Below are positions 8,651-37,870 of a stretch of DNA of 52,197 nt, piece by piece. Made by a program: the position numbers and the translations under genes. The stretch comes from Clostridia bacterium (GTDB lineage Bacteria > Bacillota > Clostridia > Oscillospirales > CAG-272): positions 1-52,197 of the forward strand of contig JAFYHA010000020.1 of the NCBI GenBank assembly GCA_017539425.1, in the 5' to 3' direction. Below the pieces are notes generated by a model. That model was given only the letters and a program-made list of their open reading frames with translations. It searched no databases and had not been told where the DNA came from. The number at the start of each line of letters is the position of its first letter. Positions within the stretch are counted from its first letter, which is position 1.

Positions 8651-9304
8651 TCATGCGGAGGGATCCGGGTTTTGTGTGTTTTCCGGGTCCTGAGTCTCTT
8701 CCGCAGGAGAATCGTCAGAGGTTACAGAATTTTCAGCGGCTGCGGGAGATTCGGTAGCTTCGGACTCTTCCGGGGAAGGATTCGGATCTTTCTTTTTCTT
8801 GAACACGAAGCCCTTGGAAATGAAATAGTTCAGGATGACCACGATGATGGACGACAGGAGCTTGGCGATCAGTTCGGCATTGATTGCCCAGTTCCGGTGG
8901 AAGAGGACGAAATCGAACTCGGCGCCCTTGAGGATCACGTTGAGCAGCAGGACGAGCAGGTAGGTCATGATCAGGTCAAGCCCGAATGTGCCCAACCGGG
9001 TCAGGGAGAACTTGAACAGCTGAGGCCAGAAGGTACCCTTGCTCCGGTCGGCCTTGGTAAAGACCCATTTCCGGTTGGTGCTGAACGCAACCAGCACGGC
9101 CGTGATCCACTGCAGGACCTGGGCGGTAAAATAGGTCGCCAGATAGGGCCCGCTGGAAATTTCGGCCAGATCGACGCCGAGAAAATGTTTTGCAAAGAGG
9201 AAGGTCAACTCGTAGACGGCCATGGAGCTGAACGTGGTCAGGACTCCGAAAGCCATGTAGCTCAAACCTTCACGGTGCTTTTTAATAAATGCGACTAACT
9301 TCAT
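8651..9304 (-). CDS. GtrA-family membrane protein
   Basis: This 217-residue protein has four hydrophobic helices typical of the GtrA/DPMS-like family (LSYMAFGVLTTFSSMAVYEL, a middle pair, and VVILNYFISKGFVFK at the end). The family helps move polyprenyl-linked sugars or forms part of cell-surface polysaccharide systems. A Pro/Glu/Ser-rich hydrophilic tail of about 50 residues (168-217) is longer than in most members. The start lies eight bases after the cysS stop, so it is translated as part of the cysS transcript. No glycosyltransferase partner is nearby, which leaves its precise role open. Confidence 0.8.
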   Translation of the reverse strand: MKLVAFIKKHREGLSYMAFGVLTTFSSMAVYELTFLFAKHFLGVDLAEISSGPYLATYFTAQVLQWITAVLVAFSTNRKWVFTKADRSKGTFWPQLFKFSLTRLGTFGLDLIMTYLLVLLLNVILKGAEFDFVLFHRNWAINAELIAKLLSSIIVVILNYFISKGFVFKKKKDPNPSPEESEATESPAAAENSVTSDDSPAEETQDPENTQNPDPSA

Positions 9305-9312
9305 AATTTTGA

Positions 9313-24977: not shown

Positions 24978-25826
24978 TCAATACTTTCCGGCGCAGCCGA
25001 ACAGCTGCATCTTTTCCATAGTCGCTTCCTTGACAGCCAGGCGAACGACAGGCATGATGTCGGTCTGTCCCATACCGGGCTTCCAGACTTCGTGGGCGGC
25101 TTTGGCGAAAGCCGTGTTGATGTCGGTGAAGATATTGACCTTGGAGATACCGTTGGCGATGGTGCGTTTGAAATCGTCGTCGGACAGACCGGAACCGCCG
25201 TGCAGCACCAGAGGCGTGCTGACGATGCTGGCGATCTCCTTGAGACGGTCAAAGTCGAGTCTGGGCTTTTCCTTGTATGCGCCGTGTGCAGTACCGATGG
25301 CAACGGCCAGAGCGTCTACACCGGTGACCGTAGCATATTCCAGAGCCTGCTGAGGATCGGTATAGATGCTGTTGTCGTTGGGGCCGTGGTTCTCCGCACT
25401 GGATTCGTTTGCGCCGACATGACCCAGCTCGCCCTCCACGGAAATGCCGCGTTCATGTGCATAGCGCACCAGAGCACGGACTTTCCCCATGTTGCTGTAA
25501 TAGTCATCCGTGGAGCAGTCGAACATAACGGACGTAAAGCCGAGACGGATGGCTTTCTTGACCATATCCAGGGTCAGACCGTGGTCCAGATGCAGAACGA
25601 TCGGGACGGTCGCCTTTTTGGCCAGAGGAAGCAGGAATGCGGACAAATCCTCCAGGGAGGCATACGGGGTCAGGATCTCGGCCGTGCCGATGATGACCGG
25701 CGCGCGAAGCTCTTCGGCGGCTTCAATAACGCCCTTGGCCATTTCCAGGTCCACGGTGTTGAACAATCCTACGGCATAGTGTTCTGCCTTAGCACGAGGC
25801 AGGAGGTCTCTCATAGTTACAAGCAT
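24978..25826 (-). CDS. fba: Class II fructose-/tagatose-bisphosphate aldolase
   Basis: This 282-residue zinc-dependent class II aldolase belongs to the GatY/KbaY/Fba group. It carries the metal-site segments HLDHG, EGELGHVG, GTAHGAYKEKP and VLHGGSGLSDDD, and NIFTDIN near the phosphate site. It condenses or cleaves DHAP with glyceraldehyde 3-phosphate. AAAGG precedes the ATG. It lies 51 bases downstream of the last BMC gene on the same strand with no terminator between. DHAP freed by the compartment aldolase would be a direct substrate, so co-transcription makes sense. Fructose versus tagatose bisphosphate cannot be settled. Confidence 0.88.
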   Translation of the reverse strand: MLVTMRDLLPRAKAEHYAVGLFNTVDLEMAKGVIEAAEELRAPVIIGTAEILTPYASLEDLSAFLLPLAKKATVPIVLHLDHGLTLDMVKKAIRLGFTSVMFDCSTDDYYSNMGKVRALVRYAHERGISVEGELGHVGANESSAENHGPNDNSIYTDPQQALEYATVTGVDALAVAIGTAHGAYKEKPRLDFDRLKEIASIVSTPLVLHGGSGLSDDDFKRTIANGISKVNIFTDINTAFAKAAHEVWKPGMGQTDIMPVVRLAVKEATMEKMQLFGCAGKY

Positions 25827-25877: not shown

Positions 25878-26072
25878 TCAGAGCAGCCAGACAGGGAGTT
25901 CTTCAGTGATCAGAACATAGTTGCCGTGGCGGGGAGCCTTCTTGGGGGCTGCCTTTTTGGCCGGTTCTTTCACAACGGCCTCGGTCTCTTCCGCAGGGGC
26001 GGCGATCACGGTCTCTTTAACGGCTTCCTTTTTGCCCGCTGCACGGGTGATGCTGCTTTTACCGACTGACAT
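25878..26072 (-). CDS. Small Lys/Ala/Pro-rich protein with C-terminal Trp, McdB-like candidate
   Basis: This 64-residue protein overlaps the end of the ParA gene by 14 bases, so translation is coupled. The start is MSVGKSSITRAAGKK, with AAGGAG about 11 bases before it. Residues 1-48 are low-complexity and probably disordered, mixing Lys/Arg with Glu and Ala/Pro (VKEPAKKAAPKKAPRHG). The last 16 residues, GNYVLITEELPVWLL, are hydrophobic with Trp third from the end. Carboxysome McdB proteins are known to be small, disordered, encoded next to their ParA partner McdA, and to end in an invariant Trp near the C-terminus. The likeness is in form only and no sequence match can be claimed. A cargo tag or shell-binding peptide is the alternative. 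Confidence 0.55.
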   Translation of the reverse strand: MSVGKSSITRAAGKKEAVKETVIAAPAEETEAVVKEPAKKAAPKKAPRHGNYVLITEELPVWLL

Positions 26073-26850
26073 ATTCCATAATCTCCTTTGCAAGATTTGC
26101 ATATTCTTCAGCGCTTCTGGAACTGCGCTTGTATTCGCCAACAGGCTTGCTGTTGTCCTGAGACCATTCGATGGTGCTGTCGATCCGTACGATCGTACGG
26201 AAGACGGTCAGCCCTTCGTAGGAACCCAGTGTGTCCAGAGTCTGCTTAAAGTACTTTTTCCGTTCATCTGCCTTGGTGATGGCGATACCCAGCAGATGGA
26301 TATCCGGGGCAATGGACTGGACCTGCTTGACGAAATCAAACATGTTCGCCAGACCGAAGAGCCCCCAGGGGCTGGCCTCGACCGGAATGATCAGTTCCTT
26401 TGAGGCACACATGATGTTCATGACCCAGCAGCCAAGCGTCGGGGGCGAGTCAATGAGTATATAATCGTAAGTGCCGGAGGCCACTACGTTGGCCAGACAT
26501 TTTTTCAGGATGAATTCCCGCTGCCACTTTGGAAACAGTTCAAATTCCACCGAGCTCATCAAGGTCGAGGAAGGAATGATATCCAGGCCTTTGTACGGAG
26601 TGGGTACGATGAATGCGGCCAGGTCCTTCTGGTCCCGGATCGCATTGTAGATCGTCTTTCCGGATTCGACAAAGGTCAAGGCGGCTTCCTCATCAAAGAA
26701 GGAGAGGGTCAGGTTCAGCTGCATGTCTCCGTCGATGAGCAGGACTCTGCGGCCGGCCCTTGCCATTTCATATCCGACATTGGCACAGGTCGTGGATTTT
26801 CCGCTTCCACCTTTGTTGTTGGCAAAGCAGATCACTTGGGTAAGACTCAT
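26059..26850 (-). CDS. ParA/MinD-family ATPase (McdA-like candidate) in the BMC operon
   Basis: This 263-residue ParA ATPase has the deviant Walker A KGGSGKST at residues 13-20 with the signature Lys13. Walker A' is in LLIDGDMQ and Walker B in YILIDSPP, followed by the KEYLI-like LIIPVEASPWGLFGL helix. There is no N-terminal helix-turn-helix, and a basic C-terminal patch (GEYKRSSRSAEEY) could bind DNA. ParA proteins of this type position plasmids, chemoreceptor arrays and carboxysomes along the nucleoid. Here it lies between a EutP/PduV GTPase and a small Trp-ended protein in a BMC operon, with no parB, so positioning of the compartment is the natural inference. AAAGGAGA precedes the ATG. Confidence 0.85.
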   Translation of the reverse strand: MSLTQVICFANNKGGSGKSTTCANVGYEMARAGRRVLLIDGDMQLNLTLSFFDEEAALTFVESGKTIYNAIRDQKDLAAFIVPTPYKGLDIIPSSTLMSSVEFELFPKWQREFILKKCLANVVASGTYDYILIDSPPTLGCWVMNIMCASKELIIPVEASPWGLFGLANMFDFVKQVQSIAPDIHLLGIAITKADERKKYFKQTLDTLGSYEGLTVFRTIVRIDSTIEWSQDNSKPVGEYKRSSRSAEEYANLAKEIMEYVSR

Positions 26851-26865
26851 ATGGGATGCTCTCCT

Positions 26866-27360
26866 TTACATGGCTTGTGAAGCGGTGCTGCGGCTGCGCC
26901 GGACAGGGCGTCTGACCGTAGGACGGTCACCTGCGCTGTCATCCAGGTAGGCAATGATATCAGATAATCCCTCGCCGGTCACCGAGCTGACCTTGAAGAT
27001 CTTCTTGCATCCGGCTTCCCGTAACCAGTTTTCGGTCATGGGAATGTTGGCATCCGGCTTGTCGATCCCGGTGAGGATTCCGATGACTTCCCGGTTGCAC
27101 ATACAGGTGATATTGGGAGGGAAGAGCGTGAACGGTTCATCTGCACTGCACAGGATCCCGACCACATCCGCCTCGTAGGTGTACAAGGCCAGAGCGGCGC
27201 CAAGTCCGCGGGTCTGCAGGTATTCGCCCGGCGTGTCAATGATCGTATCGGTATAGGAGATGTACTGTGTCTTGCAATAGGACAGTTGTTCTCCCTTGAG
27301 AGCCTGCATCAGGGTCGTCTTGCCGGCGCCTACGCGTCCGGCAAGGATCAGCCTGCGCAT
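26866..27360 (-). CDS. eutP: EutP/PduV-family GTPase
   Basis: This 164-residue small P-loop GTPase is of the kind found in ethanolamine and propanediol microcompartment operons. The P-loop is GRVGAGKT (8-15), the G3 motif DTPGEY, and the G4-like motif GIDKPD. A basic Arg-rich tail of about 20 residues (RRPVRRSRSTASQAM) extends beyond the family domain. PduV has been reported to associate with compartments and affect their movement. With the ParA gene next to it, two candidate dynamics proteins are side by side. It starts five bases after pduU. Confidence 0.88.
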   Translation of the reverse strand: MRRLILAGRVGAGKTTLMQALKGEQLSYCKTQYISYTDTIIDTPGEYLQTRGLGAALALYTYEADVVGILCSADEPFTLFPPNITCMCNREVIGILTGIDKPDANIPMTENWLREAGCKKIFKVSSVTGEGLSDIIAYLDDSAGDRPTVRRPVRRSRSTASQAM

Positions 27361-27364
27361 GGGA

Positions 27365-27739
27365 CTATGTCCTCGTCAGCGGGCAGACCGTAAACCCAAG
27401 CGTGTCCCGCACGTATGTGCAGATGGCCTGGAAGGAGGCTTCTACCTGGGAAACCGTTCCGGTCAGGATCAGCGTGCCGCTGAAACGGTCTACAAAGCCG
27501 AGCTCCGCGCCTGAGGATTTAAGCGCGATATCCGCAATGATGACGGCTGTCTCGGCCGGACTGATCGTCATGACACCGATCGCCGCCTTTGAATATTCAA
27601 CTTGAGGGTCCAGACCGAGTTTATAGTACAAAATCGGGTCCGGATTCGCGACAATGTGCGCCAGTGTGATCTGCCGTCCGGGAACCAGTTCCTGGACAAT
27701 ACGCATCTTGTCATGAAGGGCGATTGGATCTTCACTCAT
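27365..27739 (-). CDS. pduU: BMC shell protein, PduU/EutS type
   Basis: This 124-residue permuted BMC-H shell protein has an N-terminal strand RIVQELVPGRQITLAHIVANP, which in PduU/EutS builds the beta-barrel cap over the hexamer pore. It then has the BMC core (AAIGVMTISPAETAVIIADIALKSS). No strong Shine-Dalgarno is visible before its ATG, unlike neighbouring genes. It is translated between pduT and the GTPase gene. In Salmonella, PduU interacts with PduV, and the same adjacency is kept here. Confidence 0.9.
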   Translation of the reverse strand: MSEDPIALHDKMRIVQELVPGRQITLAHIVANPDPILYYKLGLDPQVEYSKAAIGVMTISPAETAVIIADIALKSSGAELGFVDRFSGTLILTGTVSQVEASFQAICTYVRDTLGFTVCPLTRT

Positions 27740-27759: not shown

Positions 27760-28305
27760 CTACAGATTGTCCCACAGTTCTTCGTGCGGGGCTGGAATGA
27801 CCGTATAATTGTTCAGCATGCTCTGTTCCTGAGCGTGCTTGGCACCCGCCTCTACGGCGGCGGTGACGTCTCCGACATCCCCGGTGACCAGGACGATGCC
27901 CTTGCCGCCCATGCCTCTGGAGAGCCGGAGCTCATAGATGGCGACCTTTGCGGTCTTGACGGCAATATCTGCGGCTTTGACGATGCTGGCGGCACTGTAG
28001 GTCTCGATGATGCCAAGACTCCCTTTGCGCTCGGGCGCGACCGTTCCGTACAGGGCGGTGATGACCTGAGGGTCGATCCGGCCCATCAGGGACACGTCGA
28101 CAAGGGTGGACGCAAAGCGTTCCTTGACATGCTCTTCGGCAGCGGTTACATCTGCGATGGAACCGGTCAGCATGATCTCAAACTTGCCCGGACAGACCGG
28201 ATGCGCCGAGACCAGACGGACTCCTGCGCTCTTCAGCGCAGCATCCGTAGCTTCTATGCCCGCAGCAATGCTTTTCAATTCAATTACGCCTACGGCTTGG
28301 TACAT
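27760..28305 (-). CDS. pduT: Tandem-BMC shell protein, PduT type
   Basis: This 181-residue trimeric shell protein is built of two BMC domains (about 1-90 and 93-175). The loop HPVCPGKFEI carries the CPGK Cys that in PduT trimers coordinates a 4Fe-4S cluster at the pore. The second domain begins GSLGIIETYSAASIVKAADI. It lies next to pduS, its usual electron-transfer partner. It is the only BMC-T gene in the operon. Confidence 0.92.
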   Translation of the reverse strand: MYQAVGVIELKSIAAGIEATDAALKSAGVRLVSAHPVCPGKFEIMLTGSIADVTAAEEHVKERFASTLVDVSLMGRIDPQVITALYGTVAPERKGSLGIIETYSAASIVKAADIAVKTAKVAIYELRLSRGMGGKGIVLVTGDVGDVTAAVEAGAKHAQEQSMLNNYTVIPAPHEELWDNL

Positions 28306-28329: not shown

Positions 28330-29664
28330 TTAGTTTTCGATGATGATCTTCGTCGGATCGACGAAGATGACCTTCCCGTCGATGGTTGCGTGCTGCGGTA
28401 TGGACAGCCCGGTTCCCGGATCGGCGATCCGCTGGCCTTTGGTCACGTGGTCTCCCACACTGACACAAGGCACACTCGGTGCGCCGATATGAGGATTCAT
28501 ACGGATTTCCACATGGTTTGTGGGCTGCAGTTCCGGCACATAGGTCGGGGTCTTGTCGTATTTGCGGATGCCAAGGCTTTCCATCCACTTGACGGAGTGA
28601 ACCCGCGTCAGGGGACGGTCTTCGGCAATGGTATAGGTTTTGCCCTCCGGAGCGGAGAAGCGGATATGGTCTTTGGCTAGAATGGCTTTGTGCTTGGCAA
28701 TCACGGCTCTTGGCGAAATGTACTGGCAGCAGGCCAGGATCTCGCAGACGCCGCAGGAGGAGCACAGGGAAGCGGTCTTGATCAGTTCGGGCTGATCCTC
28801 TCCCAGTGCGCTGGCCGCCACACGCACATGTTTGTGCGGTTCCAGCGGGTAACCCAGATTGAATCTCGGGCACAGGTCCGTGCAGCGGGTGCACTGGCAG
28901 CACACCGAGGAAGCAATGGCCAGATGGGCTTCCGGTTTGCGCTGCTTGACCATTACGGCGGGAGTGTTCTCGGGAATGATGATCAGCGACTTGGTCGTTT
29001 TGGTCACGATGTGGGTGTTCGGATTGACGATACGGCCCATGGAAGGCCCGCCGTCCAGTACGGCGTCGCCTTCAGGTACGCGGATACCCAGGTGGCTGAA
29101 CAGGTCGGACACGCGCATACCGATTGGAGCCTTGACAACGACAGGATTATCGATATCGCCGTTGATGGTCAGGTTTTTTTCGGTCAGAACGGTTCCGCAG
29201 ACCACGGCGTTGCGGATGTTGAAGATCGTCTCCAGATTGAAGACGATCACACCCTGCGTGATCGGCAGCTGTCCGGGCTGGACCAGCCGGCCGGTCGTTT
29301 CATAGATGAGAGCGATCTCATCACCCATCGGGTAAACGTTCGGAAGTTGCTTGACCGTGATGTCCGGTGCCAGTTCCTGACCTTCGGACAGCCCGAGTTT
29401 TATGCAATTGTGTTTTTTTATGCCGATCAGGCAACGCTTCATACCTACGGCCCGCATCACGATGGTGGCGCCCTCCACGACAAGCGGAAGATAGGCACTC
29501 ATCAGCGAGTAGTCCGTGTAGAGCATAGGCTCGCATTCCGCACCGTTGATGACCAGCGTATCCGCTCCTTCTGCCAACTTGGCAAAGGAAGGGAAGCCGG
29601 CGCCGCCGGCGCCCACGATGCCTGCGGTCTGCATGACCTGCTTCAATTCTTCAAATGTAGTCAA
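28330..29664 (-). CDS. pduS: PduS/RnfC-like flavin and Fe-S oxidoreductase
   Basis: This 444-residue protein has an RnfC/Nqo1-like front (GIVGAGGAGFPSFAKL, NGAECEP) for flavin/NADH binding. It then has SLBB-type residues and two 4Fe-4S motifs (CQCTRCTDLCP and CSSCGVCEILACC). A C-terminal barrel ends at VDPTKIII. In B12-dependent pdu operons it reduces cobalamin. Here no B12 enzyme is encoded, so it more likely moves electrons through PduT to balance NAD(H). The start codon is TTG with AAGGAG eight bases before it. Confidence 0.9.
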   Translation of the reverse strand: MTTFEELKQVMQTAGIVGAGGAGFPSFAKLAEGADTLVINGAECEPMLYTDYSLMSAYLPLVVEGATIVMRAVGMKRCLIGIKKHNCIKLGLSEGQELAPDITVKQLPNVYPMGDEIALIYETTGRLVQPGQLPITQGVIVFNLETIFNIRNAVVCGTVLTEKNLTINGDIDNPVVVKAPIGMRVSDLFSHLGIRVPEGDAVLDGGPSMGRIVNPNTHIVTKTTKSLIIIPENTPAVMVKQRKPEAHLAIASSVCCQCTRCTDLCPRFNLGYPLEPHKHVRVAASALGEDQPELIKTASLCSSCGVCEILACCQYISPRAVIAKHKAILAKDHIRFSAPEGKTYTIAEDRPLTRVHSVKWMESLGIRKYDKTPTYVPELQPTNHVEIRMNPHIGAPSVPCVSVGDHVTKGQRIADPGTGLSIPQHATIDGKVIFVDPTKIIIEN

Positions 29665-29717: not shown

Positions 29718-29990
29718 TTATTCGTTCGTGTAATCGATGATACCGACGATCGCGGCATCTGCGGGGATCTCGTTGCCCTCACGATCCTTGGGCAAAGCCA
29801 CACGGGCTGAACTGCCGGTCGTGATCAGGACGGTTTCACCGATACCTGCGCCCACCGCGTCTATGGCGATCATATATTTGTCCGTTTCCTTACCGTTTTC
29901 AATGATATGGACCTGCATGAACTTGGATCCGAGCAGGCTCTCACACTTGCGGGTGGATACGACATTGCCGATGACTTTTGCAACTAACAT
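29718..29990 (-). CDS. pduN: BMC vertex protein, EutN/CcmL/PduN type
   Basis: This 90-residue BMC-P protein forms the pentamers that cap shell vertices. It begins MLVAKVIGNVVSTRKCESLLG, continues MQVHIIEN and the loop IDAVGAGIGETVLITTGSSAR, and ends VGIIDYTN, all hallmarks of EutN/CcmL. It is the only pentamer gene seen. It lies between pduL and pduS. Confidence 0.93.
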   Translation of the reverse strand: MLVAKVIGNVVSTRKCESLLGSKFMQVHIIENGKETDKYMIAIDAVGAGIGETVLITTGSSARVALPKDREGNEIPADAAIVGIIDYTNE

Positions 29991-30011: not shown

Positions 30012-30683
30012 CTATTTCGCGACGGTTACGCGGCTTCCGTTGCCGATGCCTGCGGCATTGGCGTCATCCGTATCCACGTGCATTTCCAGACGAAATTTGT
30101 CGCTGACGCGGATCTGGACGTCATACCAGAGCGTGTGCTTGGTGCCGACGACATCGACGTTGATGTAGTCTCCGTCCTTTACGCCGAAACGGGCGGCGTC
30201 CTCGGGAGACATATGGATATGACGGTTGGCAATGATGCAGCCCTCGTCGAGCTGGACAATGCCTTTCGGACCGACGATAGTGATCGGGGCGGATCCGGAG
30301 AGTTTGCCGGATTCACGCACCGGAGGTTTGACTTTCAGGACATAGGAATCCGTCACCGAGATCTCGACCTGGGACTGCTTACGCAGCGGGCCGAGTACGC
30401 GGACCCCTTCAATGGGCCGCATGGAGGGACCGATCAGGGTCAGGGTTTCCTTGCAGGCGAACTGACCGGGTTGGGACAGGTCCTTGATCGGGGTGAGGGA
30501 ATAGCCTTTTCCGAACAGAATATCGACATGCTCCTGAGTGAGGTGAATATGCCGGTTGGATACGCCGATCGGAATGGACATGTCAGCGGTTGCAGCCGCA
30601 CCTGCGGAAGAACCGGACGGAGCCATTTCGGCAAGCGCGCGTTTGACCATTTCGGCTATCTGTTCACTGGTATAGGATGCCAT
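30012..30683 (-). CDS. pduL: Phosphotransacylase PduL with N-terminal encapsulation peptide
   Basis: This 223-residue enzyme exchanges CoA for phosphate on an acyl group (here probably lactoyl- or propanoyl-CoA to acyl-phosphate). The first 20 residues (SYTSEQIAEMVKRALAEM) form an amphipathic encapsulation helix, followed by an Ala/Ser/Gly linker. Two PduL domains follow with the zinc-binding NRHIHLTQEH and NRHIHMSPED motifs and GPMRP/QVEIS segments. The start at 30683 has AAAGGAAC upstream. A longer frame reaching 30851 would cross hairpins and is rejected. A 232-base gap separates it from the shell gene before it. Confidence 0.93.
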   Translation of the reverse strand: MASYTSEQIAEMVKRALAEMAPSGSSAGAAATADMSIPIGVSNRHIHLTQEHVDILFGKGYSLTPIKDLSQPGQFACKETLTLIGPSMRPIEGVRVLGPLRKQSQVEISVTDSYVLKVKPPVRESGKLSGSAPITIVGPKGIVQLDEGCIIANRHIHMSPEDAARFGVKDGDYINVDVVGTKHTLWYDVQIRVSDKFRLEMHVDTDDANAAGIGNGSRVTVAK

Positions 30684-30915: not shown

Positions 30916-31188
30916 TTAACCAATCTTCGGCAGAATCTTCTCAACATCAGAGTGCGGTCTCGGAATGACATGTGTCGCAATGACTTCGCCAAGGCGGGCA
31001 GCAGCAGCGCCACCAGCTTCGACAGCGGCCTTCACAGCACCGACATCACCGCGGACCATAACGCTGACCAATCCGGAACCGATCTTCTCGGAACCGATCA
31101 GGACAACGTTCGCAGCCTTTACCATAGCATCGGCAGCTTCGATCGCAGCAACAAGACCTCTGGTTTCAACCATACCAAGTGCTTCCAT
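30916..31188 (-). CDS. BMC-H shell protein, PduA type (copy 2)
   Basis: This 90-residue hexameric shell protein has the canonical pore loop [20 protein letters not shown] and ends [17 protein letters not shown]. It differs from the protein encoded at 31606-31881 at five aligned positions only, plus an N-terminal Leu, which shows a recent duplication. AGGAGGA is at the start. It is probably a main facet protein through whose pore small polar metabolites pass. Confidence 0.93.
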
Positions 31189-31290: not shown

Positions 31291-31578
31291 TCAGGCCTTT
31301 TTGACCGGCTTGAGGAATTTCATGACTTCGGGGTGGGGACGGGCAATGACTTCGCCCAGTTTGACCTTACCCACTTTGGCCGCTTCCGCCTTGCCGGCAT
31401 CCAGGGATGCCTGGCAAGCGGAAACAGTTCCTTCAACAACAACCGTGACCAGTCGTCCGCCCAAACGCTTTTCACAGCGAATGAACGTTACGTCCGCGGC
31501 TTTGCACATGGCGTCCAATGCAGCGATTGCGGCGACCATAGCCTGGACTTCCAGTAACGCGATTGCTTTTTCTTCCAT
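31291..31578 (-). CDS. BMC-H shell protein with basic pore loop
   Basis: This 95-residue BMC-H domain begins IALLEVQAMVAAIAALDAMCKAADV and ends VIARPHPEVMKFLKPVKKA. The pore-loop region reads CEKRLGGRLVTVVVEG in place of KIGSG, giving extra Arg residues and so a different pore charge. It is placed between the two near-identical PduA-type genes. AAGGAAG precedes the ATG. Confidence 0.9.
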   Translation of the reverse strand: MEEKAIALLEVQAMVAAIAALDAMCKAADVTFIRCEKRLGGRLVTVVVEGTVSACQASLDAGKAEAAKVGKVKLGEVIARPHPEVMKFLKPVKKA

Positions 31579-31605: not shown

Positions 31606-31881
31606 TTATTTGATCACGGGCAGGATCTTTTCAACATCGTCGTGCGGTCTCGGGATGACATGCGTAGCAATGACTTCTCCGAGGCGGGCAGCAGCGGCAC
31701 CACCGGCTTCAACGGCGGACTTGACAGCACCGACGTCGCCGCGGACCATTACGCTGACCAGACCGGAACCGATCTTCTCAGAGCCGATCAATCTGACGTT
31801 TGCAGCCTTTACCATAGCATCGGCAGCTTCGATCGCTGCGACAAGGCCTCTGGTTTCAACCATTCCAAGAGCTTCTAACAT
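31606..31881 (-). CDS. BMC-H shell protein, PduA type (copy 1)
   Basis: This 91-residue twin of the 30916-31188 protein has the same KIGSG pore and core. The differences are at surface or helix positions (for example ANVRL for ANVVL, VKSAVE for [18 protein letters not shown] at the end). AAAGGAGA precedes the ATG. Two nearly identical hexamer genes may set dosage or permit mixed hexamers. Confidence 0.93.
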
Positions 31882-31944: not shown

Positions 31945-32262
31945 TCAGATGGTGCTGTTCCGACCCAAGGCGTTGAGCCGGGCAAACCATTCAATCTCTT
32001 CGGATTGACGCGGAATTATTTTGTGGGTGATGTACATCCCTCTCTTTTTGGCTTCGTCTACGCCCGCCATCGTGGCGGCTTCCACGGAGGCCACGTCGCC
32101 TTCAATCTTGACGACCATCACAAGCGGAACCTCACACTTTTCGGCGTTGGCCGGCTTGTTCTTATCGATGGCCACGATCTCAACGGGAGCGGTCTTCGCG
32201 GCTTTGTCGGCGACCACTATGGAAGTTACGAACCCGAAGCATTCAATCATGCCGAGTGCCAT
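31945..32262 (-). CDS. BMC-H shell protein with enlarged pore loop
   Basis: This 105-residue BMC-H protein begins MALGMIECFGFVTSIVVADKAAKTA and ends IIPRQSEEIEWFARLNALG. Between strands 2 and 3 the usual short pore loop is enlarged to DKNKPANAEKCEVPLVMVV, rich in Lys and Asn and with one Cys. That should change pore width or ligand choice. GAGGTG seven bases before the ATG overlaps the end of the adh gene, so the two are coupled. Confidence 0.88.
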   Translation of the reverse strand: MALGMIECFGFVTSIVVADKAAKTAPVEIVAIDKNKPANAEKCEVPLVMVVKIEGDVASVEAATMAGVDEAKKRGMYITHKIIPRQSEEIEWFARLNALGRNSTI

Positions 32263-32278: not shown

Positions 32279-33484
32279 TCAGCCGGGGATGTAGCAGACT
32301 TTGATGCCCTGCTGCGCCACGTTGACTTCGCAGGCTTCGTTCATCTTGTCGAGCGGGAAGGTGTGGGTGATCAGATCTTCGATCGGAATGTTCATTTCCT
32401 TGCACTGACGCAGGAAAGCCATCGTTACGGGGTAATCCTCTGCGGAGTAAGCCCAGGAACCGATCAGGTTGATCTCCTTGTTGCACATGGCAAAGTGCGG
32501 GTTGACCTGGTAGTCGCCGTTGTTCACGAAGAAGCCCATCTCGCACATGCCGCCGCCGCGACGGATGAAATCATAGATGTCGGCAGCTGCTGCAGGAGCA
32601 CCGGTGCACTGGTAAGCAAAATCCGCGCCTGCACCGTCCGTCAGACCCTGGACAATGGCTACGCGCTCTTTCTTGTCCGTGATCTCGCGGAAGTTGATCG
32701 TGGTCTTGGCACCCAGCTTCTTGGCCATTTCCAAACGCTTGGGCGAGCCGTCGATCGCGATGACGTGGTTGATGCCTGCCGCGCGAAGCACGGAGCACAT
32801 CATCAGGCCTACCGGGCCGCAGCCCTGAAGGACGACCTTACTGTTGAAATTCAGCAAGCCGGTCTTCTGTCCGCGGAGCAGAGCATGCACGCACACGCAG
32901 GCCACTTCCAGGAGCATTCTCTGGTTCAGATTCAGGTCGTTGACCACGAAATACGTGGAACCCGGATCCCGGATGAGAATGTATTCGGCGAACCATCCGC
33001 GGAACGGATTGCTCGGATCGATCGGGACAAGCCCGTAAATGCCCTGATTCCAGCACAGGTTTTTCTGGCCGGGGTGGTTGCGGCAGATAAAGCAGTTGTC
33101 GCAGCTGATGACCGAAGTGACCAACTTGTCTCCGACCTTGATCGGATGACCTGCCGTATCTTCCTTGATGTTCTTGCCGAGGTAGACAATCTCACCGGTG
33201 CCTTCATGTCCGAGGACAAGCGGGCACAGACCGAAGGGGTCGCCTTTCCATTCATGGACATCGGTACCGCAGACGCCGCAGCCTTCGACTTTGACGAGGA
33301 TGTCATTGTCGGTCAGCTCAGGCATCGGGAACTCTTTGACCACGAACTTTTTCGGTTCTGCCAGGACCGCGGCCTTTGCGGATTTCGGAATCGCGCAGCA
33401 GGCAGTGGATCCTGTTGAGGAGGTGGACAGTTCGCTCAGGATCTTGCGAACGACCTCTTCAACTTGAGAAGCTGAAACGTCCAT
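32279..33484 (-). CDS. Zinc alcohol dehydrogenase with N-terminal encapsulation peptide
   Basis: This 401-residue medium-chain zinc dehydrogenase is the sorbitol/threonine dehydrogenase-like type. Residues 1-20 (VSASQVEEVVRKILSELS) are an amphipathic encapsulation helix, and a Ser/Thr/Cys linker follows. The catalytic zinc site uses CGVCGTD (Cys72) and GHEGTGE (His93-Glu94). A structural zinc loop is CDNCFICRNHPGQKNLC. The Rossmann motif is GCGPVGLM, then VIAIDGSPKR, which favours NAD(H). Most BMCs use an iron-type PduQ instead. It probably reduces lactaldehyde to 1,2-propanediol and recycles NADH inside the shell. Confidence 0.9.
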   Translation of the reverse strand: MDVSASQVEEVVRKILSELSTSSTGSTACCAIPKSAKAAVLAEPKKFVVKEFPMPELTDNDILVKVEGCGVCGTDVHEWKGDPFGLCPLVLGHEGTGEIVYLGKNIKEDTAGHPIKVGDKLVTSVISCDNCFICRNHPGQKNLCWNQGIYGLVPIDPSNPFRGWFAEYILIRDPGSTYFVVNDLNLNQRMLLEVACVCVHALLRGQKTGLLNFNSKVVLQGCGPVGLMMCSVLRAAGINHVIAIDGSPKRLEMAKKLGAKTTINFREITDKKERVAIVQGLTDGAGADFAYQCTGAPAAAADIYDFIRRGGGMCEMGFFVNNGDYQVNPHFAMCNKEINLIGSWAYSAEDYPVTMAFLRQCKEMNIPIEDLITHTFPLDKMNEACEVNVAQQGIKVCYIPG

Positions 33485-33508: not shown

Positions 33509-34963
33509 TCAAACGATGCGGAAGTTGTCCACCATCACGCAGCGGCGGGAGCGGGTGAAGCTCTTGCCGGAGGTCAGGCCCTCACCGGTCGGCCCGGCGA
33601 TGGTAAAGGTGGTATGACCTTCGCCTCCGAAGCCGATGCCGGCATAGGAAGGCGCGTTCTTGACAAAGATGGTGGTTTCCACCGCACGCGCGAACCGGGT
33701 CAGGTTGTCGATGTTCTTGGAATGCATATGCGCGGTGTGGCGGTTGCCGTGCTCAGCCTTGACAGCCAGGTCAATGGCTTCGTCGATGTTCTGCACACGG
33801 ACGATGCCCAGGATCGGCATCATCAACTCGGTCTGCACGAACGGGTGCTCAAACGGAACCTCCGCGATAGCGCAGCGGATCTCGTCACCCACATGGATGC
33901 CGATCTTCTCGAGCAGGACCTTCGCGTCGCGGCCTACGCAGTCGCGGCTGACAGCACATTTGACCTTGCCGTCCTTGTCGGTGGTCTTGTTGATGACCAC
34001 ATCCGCAAGACGGTCGGCCTGTTCACGGGTCAGCAGGTAGCAGCCGTTCTGGAGCATGTATTTGATCAGGTCGTCCGCGATGTTGGCAAACGCGAACACT
34101 TCCTTCTCGGCGATGCAGGGCAGGTTGTTGTCGAAGGTGCATCCGTCGATGATATCCTTGGCCGCTTTCTTGATGTCGGCGGTATCGTCCACGATGACGG
34201 GCGGGTTGCCGGCGCCGGCGCCGATGGCCTTCTTGCCGGAACTCAGCACGGATTTGACAACGCCCGGGCCGCCGGTGCAGACCAGCAGACGGATCAGCGG
34301 GCTCTTGTACATGATCTGGGCCGTGTCCAGGGTGGGCTTGACGACGGAGGCGACCAGGATGGGCGGTCCGCCTGCAGCCGCGCTGGCGCGGTTGACCAGG
34401 TCGACGGCATAGTTGGATGTGGCGATGGCGTTGGGATGCGGATTGAAGACCACACCGTTGCCGGCCACGATCATGCCGATGCTGTTGCAGATGACGGTTT
34501 CAGACGGGTTTGTAGAGGGAGCGATCGCGCCGACCACGCCGAACGGGGCCATTTCCGTAAGCGTGAGACCGTGATCGCCGGTCTTGACCGTCGGAGTGAT
34601 GTCCTCGGTCCCCGGCGTCTTGTCCGCGATCAGGTTGTGCTTGGCGATCTTGTGATCCACGCGGCCCATCTTGGTTTCGGCGACACCCAGAGCCGCCATG
34701 GTCGGCGCCTCCAGTCTTGTCAGGCGACGGATCTCAGTAATGATTTTCTCCCGATTGGCCAGGGACATCGAACGCACGGCCTTGTAGCCTTCGTTGGCGG
34801 CCGCGATGGCGTCGTTCATATCCTCGAAGATACCGATCAGCTTGCGCCCGTTGTACTGGGTTGCATCCCAGTTGGCCGCGGGCTGAGCGGGAGTGTTCTT
34901 CATCTGGGCCAAAACATTTTGTACGATCTCATTGATCTGAGCGTCTGTCCAGTTAATAGCCAT
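33509..34963 (-). CDS. pduP: CoA-acylating aldehyde dehydrogenase, PduP type, with encapsulation peptide
   Basis: This 484-residue enzyme oxidises an aldehyde to acyl-CoA with NAD. Residues 1-21 (NWTDAQINEIVQNVLAQM) form the encapsulation helix and the linker runs to about 37. The aldehyde dehydrogenase core shows PFGVVGAIAPSTNPSE, GGPGVVKSVLSSGKKAIGAG and the catalytic Cys283 in NNLPCIAEKEVF. The last part includes GEGLTSGKSFTR. Its substrate in this locus is probably lactaldehyde, giving lactoyl-CoA for PduL. Confidence 0.94.
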   Translation of the reverse strand: MAINWTDAQINEIVQNVLAQMKNTPAQPAANWDATQYNGRKLIGIFEDMNDAIAAANEGYKAVRSMSLANREKIITEIRRLTRLEAPTMAALGVAETKMGRVDHKIAKHNLIADKTPGTEDITPTVKTGDHGLTLTEMAPFGVVGAIAPSTNPSETVICNSIGMIVAGNGVVFNPHPNAIATSNYAVDLVNRASAAAGGPPILVASVVKPTLDTAQIMYKSPLIRLLVCTGGPGVVKSVLSSGKKAIGAGAGNPPVIVDDTADIKKAAKDIIDGCTFDNNLPCIAEKEVFAFANIADDLIKYMLQNGCYLLTREQADRLADVVINKTTDKDGKVKCAVSRDCVGRDAKVLLEKIGIHVGDEIRCAIAEVPFEHPFVQTELMMPILGIVRVQNIDEAIDLAVKAEHGNRHTAHMHSKNIDNLTRFARAVETTIFVKNAPSYAGIGFGGEGHTTFTIAGPTGEGLTSGKSFTRSRRCVMVDNFRIV

Positions 34964-35007: not shown

Positions 35008-35745
35008 TTAGTTTTCGTAAAGTTGAGCCAGAACCTTTGCGGTCACTTCATCTACCGTTTTCTGGTTCTCGGGACTGAGTTTCACTTCGGCGGGCGTTGA
35101 GGCCTTCGGGGAAGTGCAGCAACAGCCGGATTTGGTGGCCGGTGCAGCGGCGGCTCCGGAACGAAGGGCATCCAAGGCGGCCCCTACCGCATTCATACGG
35201 CAGTAGTACTCGCAGGCGTCGATGTTGTCGAACGCATTGTCCAGCGTGTCGGCTACGGCGAAAGCACTGTTGCCGCCGAACAGGAATGCGCAGTGATCTT
35301 TGAGAACGCTGCGGAAGGTGTCGTCGGCTGTGTTGGAAGTCTTGTCATAGGAACCGGCTGGGATCACGCCCAGATAAACCCGGTTCTCCGGAAGAACACA
35401 GTTGTCCACGGCTACGCCCTTGATGGCATATGCGGTCGCCACATTGGGCTGTGCATGGATGATGGCGCGGATGTCCGGGCGCAGGCTGTACATCAGGATG
35501 TGCAGCTTGGCTTCGGAGGTCGGTTCGTAAATGCCCGATCCGATCTTTTTGCCGTTGGCATCCACTTTCACGATCATGTCGCGGGTCAGGCGGTATTTGC
35601 AGACGCCGCGGGGCGTGACCAGATACTCGTTGTCGCTCAGCTTGTAGGAAATGTTTCCGTGCTTGGCGGCAACCAGCTGTTTCGCGTAAAGCCGGTGGGC
35701 GGCCTCGACCATTTGATCTCGGATTTGATATTCGGATACGATCAT
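35008..35745 (-). CDS. Degenerate class II aldolase paralogue with C-terminal encapsulation peptide
   Basis: This 245-residue protein has the fold of FucA/RhaD-type class II aldolases (HGNISYKLSDNEYLVTPRGV, PTSEAKLH with Glu78). The zinc site is broken: the usual HAH is HAQ (His97, Gln99), and the NHG motif near 159 reads NSA, so the third His is Ser160. It should bind zinc poorly or not at all. A Cys-rich stretch (SGCCCTSP) and a linker precede an amphipathic C-terminal helix (QKTVDEVTAKVLAQLYEN) like that of the intact aldolase next door. A structural partner, regulator or altered enzyme are possible. No clear Shine-Dalgarno is seen. Confidence 0.8.
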   Translation of the reverse strand: MIVSEYQIRDQMVEAAHRLYAKQLVAAKHGNISYKLSDNEYLVTPRGVCKYRLTRDMIVKVDANGKKIGSGIYEPTSEAKLHILMYSLRPDIRAIIHAQPNVATAYAIKGVAVDNCVLPENRVYLGVIPAGSYDKTSNTADDTFRSVLKDHCAFLFGGNSAFAVADTLDNAFDNIDACEYYCRMNAVGAALDALRSGAAAAPATKSGCCCTSPKASTPAEVKLSPENQKTVDEVTAKVLAQLYEN

Positions 35746-35791: not shown

Positions 35792-36655
35792 TTATTTGTA
35801 AAGCTCGGCCATGACTTTTGCCGTTACCGCATCGATGAACGCGGCGTTAGATTCTGTCTTGGCTGAAATTGGATGTTCAATGGAAACGTCCTTGAAATCC
35901 GAAGCGCCCGGCTCTTCCATCTTCTTGTTGGCCAGAGGCTCGATGTTCTGTTTGCAGCGGCAATTCTCCGTGCCCAGATTCTTGCATTTGGAGCAGCCGG
36001 GATGACGGCCTGGAACATTGAACTTCTTGCGGAGTTCCATCAGCTTCTCCAACTCTTCGCAGGACAGTTCTTTTTCCCCGCCGAGCTGACGGGCCATCAG
36101 GGTGATCTTGGCATAGAACTCCAGCGTTTCCATGTTGAAATACGCTTTCATCAGCGTGTTGCCGACGGTCAGCGCGCCGTGGTTGGCCAGAAGGAACGCG
36201 TCGTGGTCCTGAATGTAGGGCATCAGGGAGTTCGGGATCTCGTCCGTGGACGGCGTTCCGTACGCGCAGGTCGGAACGGATCCCAGGAACAGGGAAGCTT
36301 CGGCCATCGTGTATTTGTCCAGCGGCACGTGGGCCACGGCGAACGCGGTGGCCGTAGGCGGATGGGCGTGCACAACGGCGCGTACGTCTTCGCGCTCGGC
36401 ATAGACTTTCAGATGCACCTTGAATTCGGAGGAGGGATTGTACGGGCTGGATTCCAGCTTATTGCCGTTTGCATCCACGCGGAGGATCATATCCGGGGTC
36501 ATAAACCCTTTGGATACGCCGGTAGGGGTGCAGTAGAATTCGTTCGGGCCGACCTTGACGGAAATGTTGCCGTCATTGGCCGCGACAAAACCGTTCTGGT
36601 ATACGCGGCGGCCGATCTCGCAGATTTCTTTTTTAATTTCAAATGCAGATGGCAT
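35792..36655 (-). CDS. Class II sugar-phosphate aldolase (FucA/RhaD-like) with C-terminal encapsulation peptide
   Basis: This 287-residue zinc aldolase of the L-fuculose-1-phosphate/ribulose-phosphate epimerase family has a complete zinc and catalytic set: Glu77 in PSSEFKVH, His96 and His98 in VVHAHPPT, and His159 in LLANHGALTVG. The usual family length is about 215. The extra tail holds a Cys motif (CSKC at 221-224, CRC at 232-234), a linker and a terminal amphipathic helix (NAAFIDAVTAKVMAELYK). The helix is probably an encapsulation peptide. It likely splits a deoxysugar-1-phosphate into DHAP and lactaldehyde within the shell. Confidence 0.9.
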   Translation of the reverse strand: MPSAFEIKKEICEIGRRVYQNGFVAANDGNISVKVGPNEFYCTPTGVSKGFMTPDMILRVDANGNKLESSPYNPSSEFKVHLKVYAEREDVRAVVHAHPPTATAFAVAHVPLDKYTMAEASLFLGSVPTCAYGTPSTDEIPNSLMPYIQDHDAFLLANHGALTVGNTLMKAYFNMETLEFYAKITLMARQLGGEKELSCEELEKLMELRKKFNVPGRHPGCSKCKNLGTENCRCKQNIEPLANKKMEEPGASDFKDVSIEHPISAKTESNAAFIDAVTAKVMAELYK

Positions 36656-36676: not shown

Positions 36677-37870
36677 TTATTTGACCAGATTGAGGGTGTC
36701 CAGGGCGATCATCAGTTCCTCGTCGGTCGGGATGACCAGGGTGCGGACCTTTGCGTCCGGAGCGGAGATGTCCACGTTCTCGCCGCGCGGGCAGGACATA
36801 TTGAAATCCTCGTCAATGGAGATGCCCAGATAATCCATATCGCGGCAGACCGCGGCGCGGAAGGCACGGTCGTTCTCGCCGATGCCGGCGGTGAAGAGCA
36901 CGATGTCCACTCCGTTCATTTCCGCAATATACGATCCGATGATCTTCTTGGCGTCCTGGACCAGGACGTCCAGGGCCAGCTTGGCGCGTTCGTTCCCGGC
37001 GTCGGCGGCCGCCCACACGTCTCGCATGTCGCTGGACACGCCGGACAGGCCGAGCAGACCGGATTTCTTGTTGAGAACGTCGTCCATCTGGTCGGGGGTC
37101 AGGTTTTCCTGTTTCATCAAGTAGGTCACGATGGTGGGATCAATGGAGCCGCACCGTGTGCCCATGGGAAGACCTTCCTGCGGAGTCAAGCCCATCGCGG
37201 TATTGATGACCTTGCCGTGATCCACGGCGGTGATGGAAGAACCGTTGCCGCAGTGGCAGGTGATGATCAGGAGCTGTTCCAGAGGAACGCGGACGAATTC
37301 GGCGGCTTTGTGAGCCACATATCTGTGGGAGGTTCCGTGGAACCCGTATCTGCGGACCTGATATTTTTCGTAGTACTCGTAGGGCAGGGCGTAGATGTAG
37401 GATTTCTCCGGCATCGTGCTGTGGAACGAGGTATCAAACACAGTCACCATGGGCTTGCCCGGCATTGCCTTGCGGCAGGCGTTGATGCCCTTGATGGCGG
37501 GCGGGCCGTGAAGCGGGTTGATGCCCACGATGGATTCCAGATAGCGGAGGACCGAATCCGTAACGATCATGGATTCCTGGAGCTTGCCGCCGTGTGCTAC
37601 GCGGTGTCCGACCGCGTCGATCTCGTCGACGCTCTTGATCACGCCCAGATTGCTGTCCGTCAGGAGCTTGAGCACCAGCGCGATGGCATCGTCATGATCC
37701 TTGAGCTCGATTTCGGACTTGTAATCGTCCTTGCCGGGGCGCTTGTGCGTGACGGCGCCTCCGATTCCAATCTTTTCGCAAAGCCCTTTCGCGATGACCT
37801 TGTTCTCGTCCATATCGAACAACTGATATTTCAGGGACGAGCTTCCGGCATTGACTACCAGGATTTTCAT
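36677..37870 (-). CDS. ackA: Acetate/propionate kinase
   Basis: This 397-residue ASKHA-fold kinase makes ATP from an acyl-phosphate. The N-terminal KILVVNAGSSSLKYQLFDM, the central VFDTSFHSTMP, RYGFHGTSHRYV and ITCHCGNGSS, and FTAGIGENDRAFR toward the end are all AckA signatures. GGAGGT lies five bases before the ATG at 37870. No encapsulation peptide is present, so it works in the cytosol on acyl-phosphate leaving the compartment. It is the first gene of the BMC operon. Confidence 0.95.
   Translation of the reverse strand: MKILVVNAGSSSLKYQLFDMDENKVIAKGLCEKIGIGGAVTHKRPGKDDYKSEIELKDHDDAIALVLKLLTDSNLGVIKSVDEIDAVGHRVAHGGKLQESMIVTDSVLRYLESIVGINPLHGPPAIKGINACRKAMPGKPMVTVFDTSFHSTMPEKSYIYALPYEYYEKYQVRRYGFHGTSHRYVAHKAAEFVRVPLEQLLIITCHCGNGSSITAVDHGKVINTAMGLTPQEGLPMGTRCGSIDPTIVTYLMKQENLTPDQMDDVLNKKSGLLGLSGVSSDMRDVWAAADAGNERAKLALDVLVQDAKKIIGSYIAEMNGVDIVLFTAGIGENDRAFRAAVCRDMDYLGISIDEDFNMSCPRGENVDISAPDAKVRTLVIPTDEELMIALDTLNLVK

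Follow-up and report, generated by a model that had tools for sequence, protein, structure and literature searches.

The window, as we call the whole stretch of DNA analysed here (52,197 nucleotides of contig JAFYHA010000020.1 from a Clostridia bacterium of the CAG-272 lineage, assembly GCA_017539425.1), carries a co-oriented run of minus-strand genes for a catabolic bacterial microcompartment (BMC; Table 1). As drawn, the run starts with an acetate kinase gene and proceeds through shell and enzyme genes to EutP, a ParA-type ATPase, a 64-residue protein and a ketose-bisphosphate aldolase. A scan of the window for promoters and terminators returned only promoter-like sites, located before the kinase gene. 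Judged by eye, and by a pattern that we take to be the one typical of encapsulation peptides, stretches resembling such peptides stand at the N-termini of PduL, the alcohol dehydrogenase and the aldehyde dehydrogenase and at the C-termini of both class II aldolase family proteins. A hydrophobic-moment score separated these enzyme ends (0.41 to 0.73) neither from control ends (ParA C-terminus, 0.71) nor from adaptor ends (0.44 and 0.63).

Table 1. Genes of the BMC operon in the window.
Feature	Position	Strand	Basis or remark
Class II ketose-bisphosphate aldolase, downstream of adaptor	24978..25826	-	Pfam/NCBIfam
64-aa adaptor: N-motif MSVGKSSI, Ala/Lys/Glu/Pro-rich linker, C-motif ELPVWLL	25878..26072	-	translation, family alignment, AlphaFold2
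ParA-type ATPase, BMC-associated clade, deviant Walker A KGGSGKST	26059..26850	-	263 aa; Pfam AAA_31, E 2.4e-49
EutP/PduV-family GTPase, constant neighbour upstream of ParA	26866..27360	-	Pfam/NCBIfam
BMC-domain shell protein, EutS-like by eye	27365..27739	-	PF00936
BMC-T shell protein, two BMC domains	27760..28305	-	Pfam
RnfC/PduS-like electron-transfer protein	28330..29664	-	Pfam/NCBIfam
EutN/CcmL pentameric shell protein	29718..29990	-	PF03319, E 2.6e-27
PduL phosphotransacylase, start placed by eye at MASYT	30012..30683	-	Pfam
BMC-H shell protein	30916..31188	-	Pfam
BMC-H shell protein	31291..31578	-	PF00936, E 5.3e-19
BMC-H shell protein	31606..31881	-	PF00936, E 7.4e-30
BMC-H shell protein	31945..32262	-	Pfam
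Zn alcohol dehydrogenase family protein	32279..33484	-	NCBIfam
Aldehyde dehydrogenase, presumably of the acylating type	33509..34963	-	NF011927, 666.8 bits
Class II aldolase family protein	35008..35745	-	matches below family cut-offs
Class II aldolase family protein	35792..36655	-	matches below family cut-offs
Acetate/propionate kinase, first gene of the co-oriented run as drawn	36677..37870	-	TIGR00016

A first-pass annotation of the window had singled out the ParA with its deviant Walker A motif, which overlaps by 14 bases the gene of a Lys/Ala/Pro-rich protein ending in ELPVWLL and has no parB partner. Translation bears this out: the overlap spans 26059-26072, AAAGGAG precedes the second ATG, and the neighbours of ParA are EutP and the small gene (followed by the aldolase) rather than parB, the Soj and ParB of the source genome being located on a separate contig. 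The small protein (MSVGKSS...ELPVWLL; P0002), hereafter the adaptor, has an aromatic residue within its last five positions and an acidic residue within five of that aromatic. No Pfam or NCBIfam model matched it at E 0.001, and the ParB_N (CTPase) domain is absent from it by Pfam. It is probably disordered, as the same annotation had proposed: AlphaFold2, given 10 aligned adaptors, predicted no fold (mean pLDDT 59, pTM 0.12), and a charge-hydropathy score places its linker on the disordered side, although the whole 64 residues fall on the folded side. Among plain linkers of related adaptors, 64 of 90 score as disordered.

Related ParA genes were located by tblastn. A contig scan found 84 related ParAs, of which 80 loci (50 to 84% identical to the window ParA) were kept; together with the window and 33 loci from genome searches, these make up 114 ParA loci, with some genomes counted twice. 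A small gene with the same ends overlaps ParA in 111 of the 114, so that the pairing of ParA and small protein is more than chance. The offset between the two genes is -14 bases in 94 loci, -26 in nine, -10 in seven and -17 in one. The three ParAs without a recognisable adaptor beside them (L066, L083 and L099) belong to genomes that nevertheless carry BMC genes (G002, G077 and G304).

The 98 distinct adaptors, which include several near-copies from related genomes, are 63 to 375 aa long and are most alike at their two ends. At the N-terminus, M-x-[IVL]-G-K (G4-K5) is found in 96 of 98, the exceptions being L048 and L070, and position 8 is Ile in 92; since adaptors were picked with a loose N-terminal pattern, these N-motif counts are partly selected. 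The C-terminal motif was used for picking only at the nine loci with offset -26, and it is present in all 102 loci chosen by start position and the loose N-terminal pattern with the C-motif unused. In every distinct adaptor, the C-terminus has the form [LMI]-P-x-[YFWH]-L-L or similar, with Pro at -5 in 98/98, Leu at -2 in 97/98 and Leu at -1 in 95/98. Residue -3 is Tyr in 59, Phe in 14, His in 13 and Trp in 12, i.e. Tyr, Phe or Trp in 85, and Asp or Glu occurs between -8 and -4 in 82. The first-pass annotation had drawn on the invariant C-terminal Trp of carboxysomal McdB and suggested searching for a Trp-ended small protein beside ParA at other BMC loci. The small protein was indeed there, whereas Trp is just one choice within the family, made by the window adaptor, L003, L004 and nine other distinct adaptors. 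Between the ends, the linker is free in length and contains Ala (17%), Lys (17%), Val (9%), Thr (9%) and Pro (9%).

The ATPase itself falls into a group of its own. In a tree with four Soj, eight plasmid-type ParAs, two MinD and one McdA for comparison, a single clade with support 100/100 unites the 29 BMC-associated ParAs; the lone McdA, from Gloeothece PCC 7424 (L135), has a very long branch, and the set contains no alpha-McdA. The window ParA lies outside the group of four Soj. It scores 112-126 bits against Soj, 80-140 against plasmid-type ParAs and 61 against McdA (27% identity); against PDB sequences, it reaches 49 bits with McdA and 87 with Soj. Both Walker A lysines, D40, D42 and Q44 are kept in 29/29 clade members (plasmid ParA L148 was left out of the residue table). 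The predicted structure of the window ParA (pLDDT 92) matches Soj best, with 8ray also closest, while McdA ranks 22nd.

As the code 8ray stands in the text of PMC12462528, we took this entry to be M. xanthus ParA-D60A and used it to transfer M. xanthus residue numbers to the clade. That text describes a loop of M. xanthus ParA that forms part of the ParB pocket. In this loop, L139 and G140 are present in 29/29 clade ParAs, and a clade-specific Trp142 is found in 27/29, at a position taken by Leu or Ile in the 12 others compared. Of the 29, 21 have Tyr and five have Phe at Y68 (M. xanthus Y81), and 26 have Glu or Asp at E104 (M. xanthus E117), while the equivalents of M. xanthus E82, D110 and L152 are not kept; the alignment column for L192 is doubtful. 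Judging from this alignment, the partner site of the clade is probably in use but re-tuned. Elsewhere in the protein, Lys198 (29/29) and Trp229 (25/29, with Lys in the other four) are likewise specific to the clade, being absent from the sequences of Soj, plasmid-type ParAs and McdA that were compared.

How constantly does this ParA accompany BMCs? All 80 kept loci are from BMC-carrying genomes, and in 72 of them shell genes adjoin ParA. The genomes of the other eight have 4 to 10 PF00936 matches elsewhere; four of these loci are cut by a contig end just before ParA (L043, L067, L078 and L080) and the remaining four lie among other genes (L048, whose contig measures 4.3 kb, L066, L070 and L075), with the shell genes of L066 located on the same contig some 67 kb off. 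At the level of the class, three of 293 genomes have such a ParA (the source genome, G077 and G214), and all three have a BMC, the base rate for BMCs in this sample being 78/293. A further ParA, in G057 (34% identity, E 6.7e-41), falls outside the clade and was dropped from the counts, though that genome has BMC genes. In a sample of 196 genomes of the source organism's own family, ParA (E up to 1e-50) is present in 25 and a BMC in 49, and all 25 are among the 49. With kinship incompletely corrected in either case, the probability of this by chance comes to 2e-18 when genomes are counted and to 1e-6 when genera are (9/9 ParA genera among 19 BMC genera of 71). Within genus g203, one listed species (G480) has both and another (G331) neither. 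Family f51 has ParA in 9/9 genomes and a BMC in 8/9; the remaining one (G303, 76% complete; L100) has ParA and an adaptor with a ParB_N-type domain but no BMC-domain match in its genome. Conversely, of the 49 own-family genomes with a BMC, 24 lack this ParA at the 1e-50 cut-off, meaning that BMCs can do without it. Co-occurrence of ParA and BMC is thus not sporadic, and ParA is tied to the BMC even when the two are unlinked. The first-pass annotation had named clustering with partition ParAs and sporadic co-occurrence with BMC loci as signs against its proposal: the scores do put the ParA closer to Soj and to plasmid ParA than to McdA, yet it belongs to a clade of its own and keeps steady company with BMCs.

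A glycyl radical enzyme or its activase is encoded in 66 of the 80 loci, L003 and L004 are aldolase-type like the window, and 12 are not typable from the stretch covered; a later search added a further aldolase-type locus (L108/L168). The glycyl radical enzyme of the source genome lies with its activase on another contig, and the 9.5 kb read there (L167, G000:C97:1-9500) showed no BMC gene, which is why the window operon is termed aldolase-type. This enzyme is ~60% identical to the BMC-linked one. With loci that we take to be of the PVM-like or GRM5 type, the operon shares class II aldolases, aldehyde dehydrogenase, PduL and AckA, but it has no glycyl radical enzyme. The ketose-bisphosphate aldolase that follows the adaptor is also found in L003, L004 and L168; it was not found in the other 78 of the 80 loci within the stretch covered.

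Eight of the 98 adaptors (L075, L084 and L100 to L105; by motif) hold an extra domain between the same two ends. Pfam identifies it as ParB_N in 4/4 of those scanned (E 6e-9 to 3e-12); the sole other Pfam match among the four is weak, below cut-off and in L075 (adaptor at 8770-9312 of its locus), and no helix-turn-helix from Pfam was matched. An alignment of six such adaptors has M1, G4, K5, S7, I8, R10 and the final P-x-x-L-L invariant, and the resulting profile, run against the source genome, matches the window adaptor from its first residue (E 0.0017). The same profile gave 11 matches in G077, G304 and G002, none with the C-motif in the stretch read, though it can overlook plain adaptors and missed that of L070 in G003. 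The surroundings examined for these loci, namely 8 kb on either side of the L075 ParA, 17 kb for L084 (L097) and 3 to 4 kb for each of L100 to L105, showed no BMC gene. In the ParA tree, the four included f51 proteins with ParB-type adaptors branch first inside the clade, while L075 is placed among ParAs whose adaptors have plain linkers. This order, several branches of which are weak, fits more than one loss of the ParB_N domain.

By eye, the adaptor [IVL]GK resembles the aliphatic-Gly-Lys/Arg motif by which ParB binds ParA, a stretch too short for a test, and the source genome's own ParB starts MPQKKIGGLGKNYF (it begins ...GGLGKNYF), compared with IGKNSI or VGKSSI in adaptors. The pair shares the ParA fold with Soj/ParB (ParABS), from which it differs in that the adaptors have no reported DNA-binding domain, the ParAs form a separate clade and the cargo is presumably not DNA. 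The presence of a ParB-type domain between the same ends in eight adaptors suggests that the adaptor is a stripped-down ParB, and such relatives suggest that the gene pair evolved from chromosome-separating machinery. A possible, still tentative history, which we rate at somewhat less than an even chance, is that adaptors of this kind arose from a chromosome-type ParB that lost its DNA-binding part, kept its ParA-binding N-terminus and gained a shell-binding C-terminus, and that ParB_N was lost later, so that the two short motifs remained with a free linker between them. In that case, the eight adaptors with a ParB_N-type domain would be living intermediates, possibly with CTP-switched BMC positioning. 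For comparison, the 2018 description of McdB notes no identifiable similarity to any known ParB (text of PMC6328274).

McdA and McdB, with which cyanobacteria space their carboxysomes, are the obvious reference, and the likeness to them suggested by the first-pass annotation holds in part. As in McdAB, a ParA/MinD-type ATPase, with the Walker A Lys and the D40 and D42 equivalents in all 29 clade members, stands beside a small, poorly folded partner that has basic residues (Gly-Lys) near its N-terminus and mostly an aromatic one near its C-terminus, and that would serve a BMC. However, the one McdA compared lacks the deviant Walker lysine of the window ParA and stays outside the BMC-ParA clade, the adaptor motif [LM]Px[YFWH]LL differs from the alpha-McdB consensus R(V/I)WPD, and the BMC is a catabolic one. 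In the sequence comparisons made, the pair fell together neither with McdA nor with carboxysomal McdB.

A closer counterpart may exist at noncarboxysome BMCs. ParA is listed among the ancillary genes of BMC loci in the text of Axen et al. 2014 (PMC4207490), and that of Basalla et al. 2024 (PMC11321042) describes McdB-like proteins near PDU and GRM operons that have Tyr or Phe in the last five residues and acidic residues nearby, a description repeated in a 2025 review (PMC13052382). Likened from this textual description rather than from sequences, the adaptors quite possibly are the same family, although they also use Trp and His and the window operon is aldolase-type without a glycyl radical enzyme. 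Pairs resembling McdAB beside BMC operons, among them the Tyr/Phe-ended proteins of GRM and PDU loci, are already known in principle, having been proposed in the texts of PMC8262871 and PMC11321042. The pair described here, in which the first-pass annotation saw an extension of the McdAB principle beyond carboxysomes, would not be the first of its kind. As far as seen, what is new are the co-occurrence even when unlinked, the anatomy of the adaptor family and the ParB-type intermediates. ParA as a whole word is absent from the main texts of Sutter et al. 2021 (PMC8217296) and of a human-microbiome survey (PMC8156839), and no paper title on a ParB-domain BMC adaptor turned up in the open-access literature searched, which is not proof of absence.

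We consider it likely that ParA and a dedicated cargo adaptor jointly distribute the aldolase-type BMC over the nucleoid and resemble McdAB in action. ATP-bound ParA dimers would coat the nucleoid, and the adaptor would bind the outside of the BMC shell via its C-terminal [LM]Px[YFWH]LL motif. Docking of its N-terminal Gly-Lys motif at the edge of the ParA dimer would trigger ATP hydrolysis and release from DNA, whereupon the BMC would ratchet toward remaining ParA, so that BMCs spread out and are inherited by both daughters. Observed directly are the gene pair, its conserved ends, a ParA clade with intact nucleotide-binding residues and the constant company of BMCs, from which we infer binding of the adaptor to ParA and to the shell as well as BMC movement. 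The proposal gains from what the respective texts report for known systems: the N-terminal 20 residues of H. neapolitanus McdB are enough for McdA binding (PMC12204374), ParB binds ParA via aliphatic residues around a central Arg/Lys (PMC12462528) and McdB requires a C-terminal aromatic residue to associate with carboxysomes (PMC11321042). The separate Soj/ParB of the source genome also counts in its favour. Against it count the three ParAs without an adaptor, the f51 genome without a BMC match, the BMC genomes without ParA, His at the aromatic position, the unkept E82, D110 and L152 equivalents and the overlapping hydrophobic moments.

Other readings account for parts of the same evidence. 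In one of them, the small protein would work inside the BMC lumen as a scaffold or assembly factor, with ParA acting on assembly instead of spacing. This would agree with the overlap between moment scores of adaptor and enzyme ends and with a hydrophobic C-motif that could bind any shell or core protein; we hold it to be unlikely, as the N-motif looks by eye like ParA-binding N-termini and relatives have a ParB_N domain set between these same ends. A chromosome or plasmid DNA-segregation system that came to lie in a BMC operon by chance seems quite unlikely, even though Soj-type and M. xanthus ParA are the best-scoring structures for the ParA, which reaches 140 bits with plasmid-type ParAs in one set and has relatives with ParB_N-type adaptors: the source genome has a Soj/ParB of its own, the four ParB-type adaptors scanned gave no helix-turn-helix, and all 80 loci, those with ParA away from shell genes included, belong to BMC genomes.

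The linker invites yet another explanation, namely that it passively tethers the BMC to DNA with ParA as a modulator. Its lysine content (16.6% over 98 adaptors) and net charge (median +7 in 90 plain linkers) speak for such a tether, but the charge can be as low as -2, and the window adaptor as a whole carries just +3; we hold this reading to be very unlikely. Least probable of all is that EutP is the positioning factor and the ParA pair secondary. EutP is encoded immediately upstream of ParA in 74/80 loci, and its relative PduV has been suggested to position PDU BMCs (text of PMC8262871). The EutS-like and EutP genes are adjacent in 72/80 loci, and in five genomes with ParA away from shell genes (L087, L090, L092, L094 and L095) EutP stays next to the EutS-like gene without ParA. 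EutP is hence more plausibly a companion of the shell gene, and its membership in the positioning module, which the first-pass annotation had raised as a possibility, is rejected.

If the pair does position its BMC, the sugar-degrading BMCs of Clostridia would be actively placed by a ParA of their own, and BMC positioning would become testable outside carboxysomes. The ParB_N-type relatives would connect ParB with an organelle adaptor at the sequence level, and the two short conserved adaptor ends are candidates for peptides that hook cargo onto a ParA ratchet.
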